Shown piece after piece: positions 12,467 to 18,870 of a DNA stretch of 63,438 bases. The DNA is taken from the NCBI GenBank assembly GCA_934254985.1, contig CAKQMS010000013.1, positions 1 through 63,438 on the forward strand, given 5' to 3'. The notes beneath the pieces are model-generated. The model was not told the origin of the DNA, searched no databases, and was given only the letters and a program-made list of their open reading frames with translations. The position numbers were made by a program, and so were the translations under genes. How positions within the stretch are numbered: position 1 is the first letter of the stretch; the number at the start of each line of letters is the position of its first letter. The DNA comes from an uncultured Prevotella sp. Lineage in GTDB: Bacteria; Bacteroidota; Bacteroidia; Bacteroidales; Bacteroidaceae.

Positions 12467-13927
12467 ATGAAAAAGTATTCAAACTATTTGCTTGCAGGAG
12501 TATGTGTAGCTTCATTGGCTCTATCGGCAGGCTCTTTTATTAAGGTTGAAGCAGCAAGTCCTGCAACACAGATTGCTGGTCAGCCTGTAGATTTGACTTA
12601 TGCAGCAGAAAAGGCATTACCTGCAGTAGTACATATTAAATATGTGCAGAACTCAAAGGTACAGACTGTAGACGTACAGGCAGATCCATTCGACTTCTTC
12701 TCTGATCCATTCGGATTCTTTGGTAATCCACAAGGTGGTGGCACACGTAAGCGCCAGGTGCAGACTCCTAAGAAAGAAGCTCAAGGTTCGGGTGTTATCA
12801 TTAGCACAGATGGTTATATCGTAACAAACAACCACGTGGTAGAAGGTGCTGACGAATTGACAGTAACTCTAAATGATAACCGCGAATTTTCTGCTCGTAT
12901 TATAGGTACCGACAAGACTACCGACCTTGCCCTTATAAAGATTGATGGCAAGAATCTCCCTACTCTACCTATTGGCGATTCTGATAAGTTAAAGGTTGGT
13001 CAATGGGTGATTGCCGTAGGTAATCCATTTGGTTTGAATAACACCGTGACTGCAGGTATCGTAAGTGCAAAGGCTCGTTCGCTTGGTGCTAATGGTTTGG
13101 AAAGCTTCATTCAGACTGATGCTGCTATAAACCAGGGTAACTCAGGTGGTGCTCTCGTAAATACAGAAGGTCAGTTGGTAGGTATCAACGCTATGCTCTA
13201 CTCTCCTACTGGTTCATATAGCGGCTATGGTTTTGCCATTCCTACAACTATCATGAACAAGGTTGTTGATGACTTGAAGAAGTATGGTAGCGTGCAGCGT
13301 GCTTTGCTCGGTATACAGGGTGGCGATGTATTGAACTACATCAACGACCAGAAAGAAAAGGGCAAGGATGTTGACCTTGGTACAAACGAAGGTGTATATG
13401 TTGCTAAGGTTCAAGACGATGGTGCTGGTGCTTCTGCAGGTCTTAAGGAAGGTGATGTTATTGTAGCAGTTGACGGAAAGAACGTTACCAAGATGGCAGA
13501 ACTTCAAGAAGTTATGGCAAGCAAGCGCCCTGGCGACAAGCTTTCTATAACATATATGCGCGATAAGAAGAAGACTACAAAGACCGTTACATTGAAGAAC
13601 GAACAGGGTACGACAGCTGTTGTTAAGCCTGCTGACTTGGATGTACTTGGTGGCAACTTCCGCGAGATTACTAACGAGCAGAAGAAGCAGCTCAACATCA
13701 ACTACGGTCTTGAGGTTATGAAGGTTAACAAGGGTGCGCTACAGAATGCTAACATCTCTCGTGGCTTCATCATTCAGCGTATCAACGATGAAACTGTGAA
13801 GACTATCGATGATTTGCAGAAGATTGTAAAGGCAGCATCTACAAGCAAGGATCCTGTTCTCTACATCCAGGGTATCTATCCTACTGGTAAGAAGGGTTAC
13901 TTCGCTGTACCTTTGAACGAAGAATAA
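12467..13927 (+). CDS. degP: HtrA/DegP-type periplasmic serine protease
   Basis: This 486-residue protease has a signal peptide (about residues 1-30), then the trypsin-like domain with catalytic triad His123 (TNNHVV), Asp153 (TTDLALI) and Ser226 (GNSGGAL). PDZ domains follow, the first around residues 285-375 (GVYVAKVQDDGAGASAGLKEGDVI) and a second near 395-486 (GLEVMKVNKGALQNANISRG). It acts in the periplasm, degrading or refolding damaged envelope proteins. A phenylalanine-rich loop (PFDFFSDPFGFFGNP, residues 74-88) corresponds to the LA loop of DegP, which controls assembly. It is a single-gene unit with its own promoter and terminator. Confidence 0.97.
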   Translation: MKKYSNYLLAGVCVASLALSAGSFIKVEAASPATQIAGQPVDLTYAAEKALPAVVHIKYVQNSKVQTVDVQADPFDFFSDPFGFFGNPQGGGTRKRQVQTPKKEAQGSGVIISTDGYIVTNNHVVEGADELTVTLNDNREFSARIIGTDKTTDLALIKIDGKNLPTLPIGDSDKLKVGQWVIAVGNPFGLNNTVTAGIVSAKARSLGANGLESFIQTDAAINQGNSGGALVNTEGQLVGINAMLYSPTGSYSGYGFAIPTTIMNKVVDDLKKYGSVQRALLGIQGGDVLNYINDQKEKGKDVDLGTNEGVYVAKVQDDGAGASAGLKEGDVIVAVDGKNVTKMAELQEVMASKRPGDKLSITYMRDKKKTTKTVTLKNEQGTTAVVKPADLDVLGGNFREITNEQKKQLNINYGLEVMKVNKGALQNANISRGFIIQRINDETVKTIDDLQKIVKAASTSKDPVLYIQGIYPTGKKGYFAVPLNEE

Positions 13928-14069: not shown

Positions 14070-15755
14070 TTATGCATTGATAATCTCTTTAGCTCTATCA
14101 AGAGCAATGTCAATATGGCTACAGATATTGTCTTGGCCTACAATATCATAGAAACCTGCTTTGTTGAGCTGAGAGTGAACTTTCTCGGTTACACCAGAAA
14201 GAACAATCTGTATACCTTCCTTCTGGCTCATCTCACAAAGGTTAGTAAGGTTGTGGATACCTGTTGAGTCAACAAATGGAACTTTACGCATACGGATGAT
14301 TCGTACTTGTGGTCGGTCGCCAAGAGTTGCCATAATCTCCTCGAAACGGTTACCGGCACCAAAGAAGTAAGGACCATTGATTTCGTATACTTCAACACCC
14401 TTAGGAATAGTGAGATGCTCTATGTTGCCAAGATGCATATCGCTATCTTCATCGTCTGGATTAATCTCATTAGAGATGACATGAACATCTGTAGTTTCTG
14501 ACATACGGCGCATGAAGAGCAAACATGCGATGATGAGACCAACCTCTATAGCAATGGTGAGATCGAAGATGATAGTAAGGAAGAAGGTTATGAGCAATAC
14601 TGTGACATCGCTCTTTGGATTCTTCATCAAAGCAAGGAACGAACGCCAGCCTGACATACCATAGCTAACTACAACGAGCACACCTGCCAAACATGCCATT
14701 GGAATATACTTGGCTAAAGGCATGAGGAATAGGAATATAAGCAACAACACAACAGCATGCACAATACCTGCGATAGGTGTGCGACCACCATTGTTGATGT
14801 TTGTCATAGTGCGGGCAATAGCTCCTGTAGCAGGGATACCACCAAAGATAGGTGAAGCAAGGTTGGCTACACCCTGAGCAATAAGCTCTGTGTTAGAATT
14901 ATGATGGTCTCCTATGACACCATCTGCTACGGCAGCAGAAAGCAAGCTCTCGATAGCTCCCAAGATGGCAATTGTGATAGCAGGAGATACAAGGTTCTTG
15001 ATAGTTTCCCATGAGAGTGCTGGAACTGTAGCCTCTGGAAGTGAATTGCTAATAGCAAAACGGTCGCCAATAGTTTCGATGCTCTCTACACCTGCAAATT
15101 GCTTAAGAAGCAATGCTGCTACTGTCATCACGATGATTGCTACGAGCGAACCAGGAATCTTTTTGCTCACTTTTGGTGTTAGCATAATGATTACTACACT
15201 CACGATACCTATAACAGAACTCCATAGATCGACAGTTGAGAAATTATTGAAATAACATATCCACTTTTCGATGAAGTCAGAAGGTACTGAGGCAATATTC
15301 AAGCCAAAGAGGTCTTTTACCTGAGTTGTAAAAATGGTAACAGCAATACCGCTTGTGAAACCTACGACTATAGGATATGGTATGAACTTGATGATGGTGC
15401 CAAGATGCAAGAATCCAAAAAGGATGAGGAATACACCTGCCATAAGAGTTGCAATTGTAAGACCCTCCATGCCATATTGCTGGATGATGCCATAGATGAT
15501 GATAATGAAAGCACCAGTAGGACCGCCAATCTGAACTTTGCTACCTCCAAGAGCTGAGATCACGAAGCCTGCAACGATGGCTGTGATGATACCCTTCTCG
15601 GGGGTAACACCAGAAGCAATACCAAAGGCAATAGCCAAAGGCAGAGCAACGATGCCCACGATAATTCCGGCCATAAGGTCGGCAACAAATGTTTTACGAT
15701 TGTAGTTTTTCAAGCAATGCAACAATCTTGGCTTGAAATCAAATGTTTGTACCAT
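14070..15755 (-). CDS. SulP-family anion transporter with STAS domain
   Basis: This 561-residue inner-membrane protein has the SulP N-terminus (DLMAGIIVGIVALPLAIAFGIASG at about residues 25-48), many further membrane helices, and the GGIPATGAIARTMTNINNGGRTP signature near residue 300. A cytoplasmic STAS domain follows (about 440-555) with the FVDSTGIHNL motif where regulatory phosphorylation occurs in homologues. SulP proteins move sulfate, bicarbonate or dicarboxylates; the substrate cannot be read from sequence. It is transcribed alone from a consensus promoter. Confidence 0.95.
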   Translation of the reverse strand: MVQTFDFKPRLLHCLKNYNRKTFVADLMAGIIVGIVALPLAIAFGIASGVTPEKGIITAIVAGFVISALGGSKVQIGGPTGAFIIIIYGIIQQYGMEGLTIATLMAGVFLILFGFLHLGTIIKFIPYPIVVGFTSGIAVTIFTTQVKDLFGLNIASVPSDFIEKWICYFNNFSTVDLWSSVIGIVSVVIIMLTPKVSKKIPGSLVAIIVMTVAALLLKQFAGVESIETIGDRFAISNSLPEATVPALSWETIKNLVSPAITIAILGAIESLLSAAVADGVIGDHHNSNTELIAQGVANLASPIFGGIPATGAIARTMTNINNGGRTPIAGIVHAVVLLLIFLFLMPLAKYIPMACLAGVLVVVSYGMSGWRSFLALMKNPKSDVTVLLITFFLTIIFDLTIAIEVGLIIACLLFMRRMSETTDVHVISNEINPDDEDSDMHLGNIEHLTIPKGVEVYEINGPYFFGAGNRFEEIMATLGDRPQVRIIRMRKVPFVDSTGIHNLTNLCEMSQKEGIQIVLSGVTEKVHSQLNKAGFYDIVGQDNICSHIDIALDRAKEIINA

Positions 15756-15958: not shown

Positions 15959-15990
15959 TTTGGGAGCCTAAGAATTAATTACTAATTTTG
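15959..15990 (+). promoter_or_regulatory. Promoter of the exported protein-HprK-S26-PqqD operon
   Basis: TTTG (15959-15962), 20 nt, TAATTTTG (15983-15990), 37 nt before the first start codon. It is back to back with the SulP promoter. Confidence 0.82.
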
Positions 15991-16027: not shown

Positions 16028-16552
16028 ATGAAGAAAAAAATAATGTTGTTGGCAATGCTGTTTCTCAGCATCATGTCAATGGAAGCAAAGAATGAGAAAC
16101 AGCCTACTTATTTGTATGGCTTTGCCACTTCATTCAACGATTCTACTGTATATTTTGCTGAAATTCAATTACTTGATGATGCTTGGGTAGACTCAAAGAC
16201 TAAATTCTTGTATGGTCGTGATTCATATTCGTACCAGCTACGTGACTATCTGAAGGCTAAAGGATTGAATGCTCCTACATGCGTAACAGGATTTGCCAAT
16301 ACAAAGAAGAAAGCTGAAGAGAAATTCTTGAAACTAAGAAATAAATATCTTGTTAAAGGAAAATATGATATCAAATACTTGAGCGTTAGTGACTTTAAGT
16401 ATACTCCAGTTGAATTTGACGAAGAAACTGTATATGTAGACTCTTCTAAGTCGAAGAATCTTACACCAAGGCAAGTTAAAAAAGCAGAGAAGAAAGCTGC
16501 AAAACAAGAGCAGAAAGCTGCTAAGAAGGAACAGAAAGTACAGGGAGAATAA
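16028..16552 (+). CDS. Exported protein with Lys/Glu-rich tail, first gene of the HprK/S26/PqqD operon
   Basis: This 174-residue protein starts with a signal peptide (about residues 1-20). A compact domain follows with a conserved-looking start (TYLYGFATSFNDSTVYFAEI) and GRDSYSYQLRDYL near residue 65. The tail is strongly charged, built from repeated KKAxKQEQKAAKKEQK units (about residues 148-172), and is probably a helix or disordered. I do not know its function. Its stop codon overlaps the next start (TAATG), so translation is coupled to the kinase-like gene. It could be a substrate or partner of the modifying proteins downstream, but this is inference from coupling only. Confidence 0.8.
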   Translation: MKKKIMLLAMLFLSIMSMEAKNEKQPTYLYGFATSFNDSTVYFAEIQLLDDAWVDSKTKFLYGRDSYSYQLRDYLKAKGLNAPTCVTGFANTKKKAEEKFLKLRNKYLVKGKYDIKYLSVSDFKYTPVEFDEETVYVDSSKSKNLTPRQVKKAEKKAAKQEQKAAKKEQKVQGE

Positions 16553-17463
16553 TGACACTTAAGACGGACACAGCTACCTTCTTTTACCGTATAGCAGAAC
16601 ATAACCTTCGACTCACGTTTGCAAAGTCTGATACCAACAGTATGGAGTTGTTGCCATCGATGAAGCCTTTCAGAATAGAAAAGGAAGGCGGCGTGGGTGA
16701 TGACTTGTTTATCGATATGCTGGTAGATGACAATATTCGACCTGTTGATAAAACAAGACGCGAGCGTATAAGGGTTTTCGATACTGGCAATGGTGATACT
16801 ATCGTTGACAAGATTGACGATGGTGGCTATCAGTTTATCATCAAGAATATAGACGGCTATTCATGTTGCTTGCTTATCACAAATAGTACCTTCGATAAAT
16901 GTAGATGTGCGTTGAATGGTAACAATAGCATGCGACAGTTTGGACTGAACAATGCATTGATGTTGGCTTATGCTTTTGCCGGAAGTTTTAAAGATACAGC
17001 ACTTATACACGCATCGTTGGTAAGACAGAATGGTAAAGGATATGCTTTTACGGCTAAGAGCGGAACTGGTAAGAGTACGCATGTGGGATTGTGGCTAAAG
17101 CATCTGCCTGGTTGCGATCTAATGAATGATGATAACCCTATTATAAGAATCATTGATGGCAAACCATATATATATGGTGGTCCATGGAGTGGAAAGACTC
17201 CTTGCTATAGGGATGTAAAAGCAGATCTTGGTGCTATTGTTCATATAAACAGAGCGTTGGAGAATAGTGTTGAAAAGAATTCTCCAATCGAAGCTTTTGG
17301 TAATGTATTGCCAGCATGCTCGACAATGAAATGGGATAGTACTATCTTCAACAATCTTTGCAACATAGTAACTAAAATAGTAGAAACAACAGGCATATAC
17401 ACCCTTCATTGCCTGCCTAATAAAGAAGCGGCTATAATATGCAACAAAGCAATATCAAAATAA
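16552..17463 (+). CDS. HprK-like P-loop kinase-type protein
   Basis: This is a 303-residue protein whose C-terminal half resembles the HPr kinase catalytic fold. It has a P-loop AKSGTGKSTH (residues 168-177), an acidic MNDDNPII segment (191-198) in Walker B position, and a GPWSGKTPCYR loop (210-220). The N-terminal half (about 1-140) is not recognisable. Small HprK homologues of this kind occur in ribosomal-peptide (RiPP) loci, for instance lasso peptide clusters, where some phosphorylate the peptide. Here it is coupled to the exported protein before it and overlaps the S26-type peptidase after it by 25 nt. No HPr or PTS gene is nearby, so a role in sugar-PTS control is unlikely. Confidence 0.82.
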   Translation: MTLKTDTATFFYRIAEHNLRLTFAKSDTNSMELLPSMKPFRIEKEGGVGDDLFIDMLVDDNIRPVDKTRRERIRVFDTGNGDTIVDKIDDGGYQFIIKNIDGYSCCLLITNSTFDKCRCALNGNNSMRQFGLNNALMLAYAFAGSFKDTALIHASLVRQNGKGYAFTAKSGTGKSTHVGLWLKHLPGCDLMNDDNPIIRIIDGKPYIYGGPWSGKTPCYRDVKADLGAIVHINRALENSVEKNSPIEAFGNVLPACSTMKWDSTIFNNLCNIVTKIVETTGIYTLHCLPNKEAAIICNKAISK

Positions 17464-17912
17464 AAGAACTTCAGTTTACTAATGCTGATTTTCTGCCAGA
17501 GGTAGTGAAGCTTGTAGAAGAGGGACATACTTGCACAATTCAACTTCGTGGTTTCTCTATGCGCCCATTCTTGGAAGACAATCGCGACAAAGCATTGCTT
17601 GCAAAGCCAAAAGCTCTGAGAGTTGGCGACCCTGTATTAGCAGAAGTTAGAAAAGACTTTTTTGTATTGCACAGAATTATTGATATAGACACCAAGAACA
17701 ACATCGTTACCTTGCGTGGCGATGGTAATATCAATAACGAAACATGCCGACAGGAAGATGTGAAAGCTTTAGCTGTAGGTTTCTATCGCAAAGGACGCAA
17801 AACTCTGGATAGCATAGACAGCAGAAAGTGGAAGATGTATTCGGCTATTTGGACCAGGCTCTACCCTATTCGCCGTTATTTGCTATTCATATATCGTAAG
17901 GTGTTTGTTTAG
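17439..17912 (+). CDS. S24/S26-type peptidase-like protein
   Basis: This 157-residue protein carries signal-peptidase-like motifs: QLRGFSMRPF with Ser40 in the catalytic position, DPVLAEV near 64-70, VLHRIID with His78 where S26B enzymes use His in place of Lys, and LRGDGNINNE (92-101). It has no N-terminal membrane anchor, but its C-terminus is basic and partly hydrophobic (YPIRRYLLFIYRKVFV) and may touch the membrane. Homologues annotated S24/S26 family peptidase occur next to PqqD-like proteins in RiPP-like loci. It starts inside the end of the HprK-like gene and precedes the PqqD-like gene by 54 nt. The cleaved substrate is unknown. Confidence 0.83.
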   Translation: MQQSNIKIKELQFTNADFLPEVVKLVEEGHTCTIQLRGFSMRPFLEDNRDKALLAKPKALRVGDPVLAEVRKDFFVLHRIIDIDTKNNIVTLRGDGNINNETCRQEDVKALAVGFYRKGRKTLDSIDSRKWKMYSAIWTRLYPIRRYLLFIYRKVFV

Positions 17913-17966
17913 AGATAACAAACTTGTAATACTAAATAGAAATATCAAAACTAAACCATATTGAAC

Positions 17967-18236
17967 ATGAAAAAGAAATCAGGTTTCGTACTTAGACAAG
18001 TATGTGGAGAGAATATAATAGTTGCAGAAGGCAAAGAGAATATCGACTTCAGCAGTATCATAGCTATGAACGAGAGTTCTGCTTATCTTTGGGATAAAAT
18101 TGGTGAAGACTCTTTTACTCCTGAGTCTATGGCAACAATGCTTACCGAAGAATACGATATCGATAATGCCACAGCCCTTGAAGATGCAACAACACTTGCA
18201 AAACAATGGATGGAAGCAGGTATTATTGAGGAATAA
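17967..18236 (+). CDS. PqqD-family protein (RiPP recognition element fold)
   Basis: The ATG at 17967 gives 89 residues; an in-frame TTG two codons earlier is less likely. The sequence matches small PqqD proteins: a basic start leading to GFVLRQVCGENIIVAEG, then NESSAYLWDKIGEDSFT near residue 37 and the EEYDIDNATALEDATTLAKQW helix region near residue 60. PqqD domains bind leader peptides and present them to modifying enzymes (the RiPP recognition element). It ends the four-gene operon, followed by a perfect terminator. No radical SAM enzyme, cyclase, ABC transporter or obvious Cys-rich precursor is present, so the system, if RiPP-like, is minimal or acts on a peptide encoded elsewhere. Confidence 0.88.
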   Translation: MKKKSGFVLRQVCGENIIVAEGKENIDFSSIIAMNESSAYLWDKIGEDSFTPESMATMLTEEYDIDNATALEDATTLAKQWMEAGIIEE

Positions 18237-18243
18237 AAAAGAC

Positions 18244-18275
18244 AGCGACCAGTTGTATCACTACAACTGGTCGCT
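18244..18275. terminator. Bidirectional terminator between PqqD-like and rubrerythrin genes
   Basis: Perfect 14-bp arms (AGCGACCAGTTGTA at 18244-18257; complement at 18262-18275) with a 4-nt loop, A-rich before and T-rich after. Confidence 0.92.
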
Positions 18276-18309: not shown

Positions 18310-18870
18310 TTACTCACCAAAATATCTTTTGTAAAGACCGATAAAGCCTGCACAATGACGAGCTTCGTCTTTAGCCATTTCATGAACTGTATCATGAGTT
18401 GCATCCATGCCTGCAGCCTTAGCATTCTTAGCAATACGGAACTTGTCTTCACAAGCACCACGCTCTGCCTCAATACGTGCAGCAAGATTACTCTTAGTAT
18501 CTTTCAATACATCACCGAGCAATTCAGCAAACTTACTTGCGTGCTCAGCTTCTTCAAAAGCATAACGCTTGAAAGCCTCTGCAACTTCTGGATATCCTTC
18601 GCGATCTGCCTGACGAGACATTGCAAGATACATACCAACCTCACAGCATTCGCCATTGAAGTGAGCCTCGAGATCCTTTATCATCTCTGGAGTAGCATCC
18701 TCATTGCGAGCAGCGCCAAGAGTGTGAACAGTTGCAAACTCAGGAGCATCAGAAGGATCTGTTATCTCTTTGAACTTGCTACGTGGAGCTTTACACAATG
18801 GACATACTTCAGGAGCCTCGGTTCCTTCATAAACGTAGCCGCAAACGGTACAAATGAATTTCTTCTTCAT
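18310..18870 (-). CDS. Reverse rubrerythrin (N-terminal rubredoxin domain)
   Basis: This 186-residue protein begins with a rubredoxin-type iron site ([10 protein letters not shown] with Cys7/Cys10 and [11 protein letters not shown] with Cys23/Cys26). A ferritin-like di-iron domain follows, with Glu/His ligands in helices such as [33 protein letters not shown] and [19 protein letters not shown]. Standard rubrerythrins carry the rubredoxin part at the C-terminus, so this is the reversed order known from clostridial oxygen-defence enzymes. It reduces hydrogen peroxide, and possibly oxygen, in the cytoplasm. The gene is alone. A 16-bp palindrome and a short tandem repeat lie upstream, next to a -7 box. 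Confidence 0.95.

Follow-up and report, generated by a model that had tools for sequence, protein, structure and literature searches.

A Prevotella operon resembling the enzyme set for linear polyphosphorylated peptides, with candidate precursors scattered through the genome

Which substrate would be served by a compact operon that encodes an HprK-like protein, an S26-type peptidase and a PqqD-family protein behind an exported Lys-rich protein? The question arises from a window of 63,438 nucleotides (the whole stretch of DNA that was analysed), for which the first-pass annotation had proposed a minimal RiPP-like or protein-marking system, its client being either the exported protein itself or a precursor encoded elsewhere. 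The layout is as described there: four genes are packed into one operon with a 1-nt overlap (TAATG), a 25-nt overlap and a 54-nt gap, behind a single promoter-like sequence and ahead of a single perfect 14-bp hairpin (Table 1). A pattern search found TTTG-N20-TAATTTTG, which we take to be the Bacteroidota promoter consensus, at 10 places in the window where 1.28 would be expected, and a generic sigma-70 scan listed no site at 15959-15990. The features ascribed to the individual products are also in place, namely the signal-peptide-like N-terminus and KKA.KQEQK tail of the first (LEAD), the P-loop of the second (SGTGKST), Ser40 and His78 of the third, joined by Asp95, and the 89-residue PqqD type of the fourth.

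Table 1. Coordinates of the operon, its signals and its neighbours in the window.
Feature	Position	Strand	Basis or residues
LEAD: exported protein, 174 aa, operon gene 1	16028..16552	+	ORF list
HprK-like putative peptide kinase, LppK-like, 303 aa	16552..17463	+	His153, P-loop SGTGKST (Lys174), Asp193-Asp194
S26 signal-peptidase-like putative leader peptidase, LppS-like, 157 aa	17439..17912	+	Ser40, His78, Asp95
PqqD-family RRE, LppB-like, 89 aa from ATG	17967..18236	+	Pfam; Asn35 + Asp73
Promoter-like TTTG-N20-TAATTTTG, 5' of operon	15959..15990	+	pattern search
Terminator, perfect 14-bp hairpin	18244..18275	.	between operon and convergent gene
Convergent gene 3' of operon	18310-18870	-	
Presumed HtrA/Deg-type protease gene, recurrent upstream neighbour, outside the pathway	12467..13927	+	
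SulP-type transporter gene (name by eye), between HtrA-type gene and operon	14070-15755	-	

The families of the last three products were examined by profile searches and alignments. The fourth gene is a clear match to Pfam PqqD (E 1.3e-12). For the kinase and the S26 protein no Pfam match exceeds its cut-off, and kinase relatives are annotated with the precomputed model PF27840. A profile of the kinase matches solved structures of PEP carboxykinase (2.4e-5) and HPr kinase (1.3e-4), and its His153, P-loop and Asp193-Asp194 are conserved at 0.97-1.00 across 117 sequences. Conservation of Ser40, His78 and Asp95 in the S26 protein is 1.00 in 113 sequences (81 Prevotella-type and 32 others), and the protein has a weak match, below the cut-off of 51.85, to the archaeal signal peptidase I model TIGR02228 (1.9e-4, 21.3 bits). 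Asn35 and Asp73 of the PqqD protein occupy the alignment positions of those LppB residues that contact the Pro and Tyr of the leader peptide. Judged by its fold and residues, this protein retains the peptide groove and leader-contact residues of an RRE, and binding of a YxxP motif is predicted. Catalytic and leader-contact residues are kept in these alignments throughout the trio, for which kinase, leader-binding and peptidase activities are predicted.

A comparable enzyme set makes the linear polyphosphorylated peptides (LPPs) of Paenibacillus, encoded by lppA-K-B-S-D-N (Popov et al. 2026, PMC13381572). In the main text of that paper, LppB binds a YxxP leader, LppK adds several phosphates to core Ser3, and leader cleavage by LppS depends on the RRE; from the paper's numbering, the phosphorylated Ser lies 18 residues past the leader Tyr. 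LPPs are called restricted to Bacillota there and their biological role is stated as unknown, and the string Bacteroid is absent from the main text. Compared with this description, the Prevotella operon has the same HprK-like kinase, discrete PqqD RRE and Ser/His/Asp leader peptidase resembling archaeal-type signal peptidases. The LPP cluster, however, includes an NTP transferase and an MsbA-like exporter, neither of which accompanies the Prevotella block (best 80 of 592 loci), and a precursor gene of the YxxPxVLxHQxIxFETxxS type, of which the window holds none. Two further groups of systems are related in part. Phosphorylated lasso peptides of the paeninodin kind share a PqqD-type B1 protein, an HPr kinase homologue, a nucleotidyltransferase, an exporter and a [Y/W]xxP leader, but, according to the excerpts of PMC8498205 and PMC7533575 used here, need a macrolactam cyclase C and a B2 peptidase, in whose place the S26 protein stands here; neither enzyme was seen among the recurring neighbours, which were named by eye. 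Bacteroidales radical SAM/PCAT clusters with GG-leader precursors, as described in excerpts of PMC10352776, come from the same bacterial order and have small precursors, whereas the four genes include no rSAM, YcaO or C39 peptidase and no GG leader.

No YxxP peptide was found in the window itself. The suggestion that the precursor lies elsewhere is supported by candidates that are scattered in the genome, none of them in the operon: peptides ~35-100 residues long whose leader is of the KKxYxxPxxEVI type and is followed by a Ser or Thr ~20 residues past the Tyr. Six Prevotella genomes, searched with peptides encoded beside the trio in other Bacteroidales, have 2-8 matches each, 29 in total (E <= 10), of which 26 are ORFs of ~44-92 residues with KKxYxxPxxEVI. 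In six named genomes PqqD gives one match each, inside the operon locus. The tails of the Prevotella peptides are acidic and Gly/Asn/Ser-rich, often ending in Trp-acid. A wider set of 92 unique peptides was drawn from 94 leader-model matches in all the DNA that had been fetched, by a score cut and removal of an ORF of locus L231, with the Tyr and Pro fixed by the collecting rule. Lys stands at -3 and -2 from the Tyr in 72 and 79% of this set, Ile or Val at +8 in 79%, and Ile, Leu or Val at +10 in 91%. The first Ser/Thr at or past Y+19 falls at +20 in 54/92 and at +19 in 27/92 (81 together), and 64/92 carry a Trp within the last 14 residues. None matches an NCBIfam model, and the two Pfam matches, each of a single member, look like chance. 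Of 120 proteins that a database search listed, the ones given with a source name are labelled hypothetical.

These peptides resemble the LPP precursors (main text, PMC13381572) in their YxxP leader and in the Ser that follows shortly past it. The leaders differ in consensus, KKxYxxPxxEVI here versus YxxPxVLxHQxIxFETxxS there, with only YxxP and the following Ser/Thr in common, and the favoured Ser/Thr is 19-20 residues past the Tyr instead of 18. We consider it probable that the HprK-like, S26 and PqqD genes encode the core enzymes of a RiPP system of the LPP type, acting in trans on scattered precursors. The trio would work like that of the LPPs, but it belongs to the class only in part, since the Prevotella block includes no exporter, NTase or precursor and the leaders follow another consensus. 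The minimal RiPP-like system first proposed is supported as to its RRE, kinase and peptidase and as to a precursor elsewhere, but not as to the exported protein as client.

A genome-contig search with the kinase alignment gave 592 loci, of which the best 80 were taken as Prevotellaceae-type. In 75 of these 80, as in the window, LEAD, HprK, S26 and PqqD follow one another in order on one strand; the order is beyond chance, and the four genes do stay neighbours in relatives, the opposite of what the first-pass annotation had named as refuting. The S26 gene is found in 80/80 and lies directly 3' of the kinase in 79, the exception being L048. Two loci (L002 and L037) stop a few tens of bases past S26, and in L004 PqqD was not seen. 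PqqD is inverted directly after S26 in L001 (7350-7619), and PqqD and S26 are inverted ~4 kb downstream in L048 (11152-12885), which may reflect either misassembly or real rearrangement. An RpoD-type sigma gene (name by eye) lies upstream in 70 loci (68 by a length filter), and the HtrA-type protease family is found in 49 of 81 (the 80 plus the window). In the window, the SulP-type transporter gene occupies the usual rpoD place. Within the genus of genome G001, 84/100 genomes have a kinase match; in 58 it is near (E <= 1e-100), and the other 26 match only through a more distant type. Four contigs of that genus (G374:C98, G381:C75, G395:C71 and G397:C39) carry two HprK-like matches head to tail, ~30-90 nt apart, and other genomes have several unlinked matches of the more distant type.

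LEAD precedes the kinase in 80/80 of these best loci, mostly by <=75 nt, as expected were the exported protein the client of the kinase and peptidase, but the same loci had been selected by HprK. In the order at large, 41/43 trio genomes lack LEAD, which occurs in 4/295 genomes. Two of these, G065 and G171, have LEAD without a strong kinase match (G171 has a weak one, 1.3e-7, on another contig). LEAD lies 3' of rpoD by 164 nt in G171 and by 152 nt in G264, with no trio gene in either fetched stretch. In G065 the distance to the upstream rpoD is 2.2 kb, and the contig that carries LEAD in G264 has the trio kinase 83 kb off. In part, then, the exported protein does occur without the other three, an outcome that the first-pass annotation had named as refuting if broad. 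The Lys-rich tail is missing in many relatives, and the LEAD alignment has no invariant Pro and therefore no conserved YxxP. An AF2 model of LEAD (pLDDT 81) gave no Foldseek match at E<=0.001. A client role for LEAD is accordingly very improbable, and the claim that the exported protein is a client or dedicated part is not upheld, given its occurrence near rpoD without the trio and its often missing tail. LEAD probably belongs to a family of rpoD neighbours outside the pathway, the first gene of the operon being a putative hitch-hiker; most simply, rpoD and LEAD are old neighbours and the trio came to be placed next to them.

Other Bacteroidales outside Prevotella also have the genes for kinase, S26 and PqqD grouped together, though not always in one order. 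Of 36 such loci fetched, 34 contain the kinase; among these, S26 is present in 30 and PqqD in at least 25, a lower count because overlapping ORFs hid some (one is seen in L088, which is the same place as L117). ABC exporters occur in 21 of the 34 and NTP_transf_5 in 15 (representatives assigned by Pfam), so some non-Prevotella loci also resemble the LPP clusters (main text, PMC13381572) in having an exporter or an NTase. The 80 Prevotella-type loci (best 80 of 592) have an ABC homologue in 3/80 and an NTase in 0/80, and NTP_transf_5 is encoded elsewhere in 6/6 Prevotella genomes. A YxxP peptide lies within 7 kb in 15/34 non-Prevotella loci, and in 11/34 PqqD and HprK flank an ORF of 37-76 residues whose N-terminus resembles KKxYxKPxxExIxID. 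This placement bears on whether the trio could instead have a regulatory or cofactor role, as in systems of the HprK_rel_A or SynChlorMet type, with the YxxP peptides a coincidence of lineage. Weak NCBIfam matches point that way (ScmC, TIGR04249, 2.9e-5; HprK_rel_A, TIGR04352, 2.8e-4), but they score 23.5 bits where 125 are needed and 20.1 where 200 are needed, far from membership of either family, and with a peptide inside the cluster in those 11 loci we regard such a system as highly unlikely. A plasmid of Butyrivibrio fibrisolvens (Bacillota) has HprK, a 57-aa YVKP peptide, PqqD and S26 in a row, and the families therefore span both phyla.

The scattered peptides and the trio also tend to occur in the same genomes. 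Among 295 genomes of the order, 127 pass the kinase threshold of E 1e-5 and 43 were counted as trio genomes (E <= 2.9e-19), a threshold put at a gap in the list after viewing it. A profile from the Prevotella peptides (A4, E <= 0.1) matches in 33 genomes and a leader profile (A7, E <= 0.05) in 36. With either profile, 45 genomes have a peptide, comprising 35/43 trio genomes versus 10/252 others (Fisher OR 106). With A7 only and the 13 seed genomes removed (282 genomes), the contrast is 17/30 versus 6/252 (OR 54, p 1e-14), and in 100 genomes of the genus the peptide is found in 83/84 kinase-positive versus 8/16 kinase-negative genomes (p 5.7e-7; genome completeness not established), that is, both in 83, kinase only in 1, peptide only in 8 and neither in 8; these Fisher p-values overstate significance because the genomes are related and the draws non-independent. 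With the profiles used, eight trio genomes are without a peptide (G014, 044, 057, 084, 118, 119, 188 and 219) and ten peptide genomes are without the trio (G016, 034, 129, 148, 169, 172, 206, 242, 297 and 299). Part of these ten are weak matches. In G242 a PqqD gene ends 11 nt 5' of the peptide, and G299 has six peptide matches, several of them good, with no PqqD and a weak HprK match in a 546-codon frame. HprK-positive genomes of the genus have a median of 9 and a maximum of 27 peptide matches (E <= 0.01). In contrast to the LPPs of Bacillota (main text, PMC13381572), the enzymes form a fixed chromosomal block in Prevotellaceae and the precursors are scattered, several per genome.

The genes beside the peptides provide a further difference from the LPPs (main text, PMC13381572), as they often encode T9SS-type cargo or lipoproteins. 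A same-strand upstream gene with a T9SS-CTD-like end accompanies 30/50 peptides versus 11/363 background genes from the same long loci, and a lipoprotein-like downstream gene on the same strand 15/28 versus 53/363, contrasts that are flattered because the patterns were written after viewing the partner tails; 23/92 peptides fall in no class. The C-terminal signature of the partners is presumably a T9SS sorting domain, as one neighbour outside Prevotella matches Por_Secre_tail. A scan of ten Prevotella partners gave BspA-type LRR in two, CBM77 in one and no match in seven. In one genome (G061; loci L264, L265, L268, L269 and L270), near-identical leaders (KPDFEVI.LE.TPKLLA.S) are joined to highly variable tails and mostly precede different lipoprotein-like genes, as in a paralogous precursor family. 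At L192:9006-13659, aminotransferase-like and sugar-epimerase-like genes (names by eye) and NTP_transf_5 come after the gene for a YxxP peptide, an arrangement that recalls the capsule-locus setting of Bacillota LPPs.

The same neighbours could mean that the peptides remain uncut as adaptors, with PqqD, kinase and S26 protein marking or processing the adjacent T9SS cargo or lipoprotein. Both neighbourhood contrasts fit such adaptors, as does the lack of an exporter in most Prevotella-type loci (best 80 of 592), but the cargo pattern is subject to the bias just given, and the set of RRE, kinase and peptidase matches that of the LPPs, whose peptide is itself modified and cut (main text, PMC13381572). 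We regard adaptors as unlikely. In the preferred LPP-type system, the PqqD protein would bind the YxxP leader of a small precursor, as suggested by its fold, its conserved Asn and Asp and the leader motif. By homology to the LPPs, phosphorylation is predicted at the Y+19/+20 Ser/Thr and cleavage two residues before it: the HprK-like kinase would modify Ser, less often Thr, ~20 residues past the Tyr, as LppK does at core Ser3, and the S26 protein, with its Ser-His-Asp residues, would remove the leader about two residues ahead, as LppS does. In the main text of PMC13381572 a Ser-to-Thr change stopped phosphorylation of an LPP, and the Thr at the site in some peptides counts against an LPP-type system. 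Other points against it are the mismatched genomes of both sets, the 26 genomes with only a more distant kinase, the absence of a YxxP peptide from the window and of an exporter from the Prevotella block, and a leader consensus shared no further than YxxP. The linear phosphopeptide would then leave the cell; an ABC exporter is encoded at many non-Prevotella trio loci and NTP_transf_5 at some, but the Prevotella block has neither. Since the precursors are often beside T9SS-type cargo or lipoprotein genes, the mature peptides would most likely serve the display or function of surface proteins. More specifically, and tentatively, one trans-acting kinase, RRE and peptidase set may, throughout the genus, mature ~9 (up to 27) different phosphopeptides in each genome, many of them encoded together with a T9SS cargo or surface lipoprotein of their own, as companion factors of surface-protein display in Bacteroidota, a proposal to which we give slightly less than an even chance.

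What is new here is a probable LPP-like RiPP variant in another phylum than reported, with enzymes that would act in trans. Searches of open-licence PMC papers found no paper that combines PqqD, HprK and Bacteroid* or Prevotella, RiPP and HPr kinase. A Bacteroidota branch that most of the genomes sampled from one genus carry, with candidate precursors often near surface-protein genes, offers a direct handle on LPP function. If correct, it would account for widespread 'hypothetical' small ORFs that lack a Pfam or NCBIfam model and would tie peptide phosphorylation to the bacterial cell surface. Two database records may be noted in passing. L073, titled 'Bacillota bacterium', is a typical Prevotella-type locus and the record is probably mislabelled. 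NC_022111.1 (L296; Prevotella sp. oral taxon 299, 1.77 Mb), held as a plasmid, is more likely a chromosome because it carries an rpoD-type gene together with the full operon.
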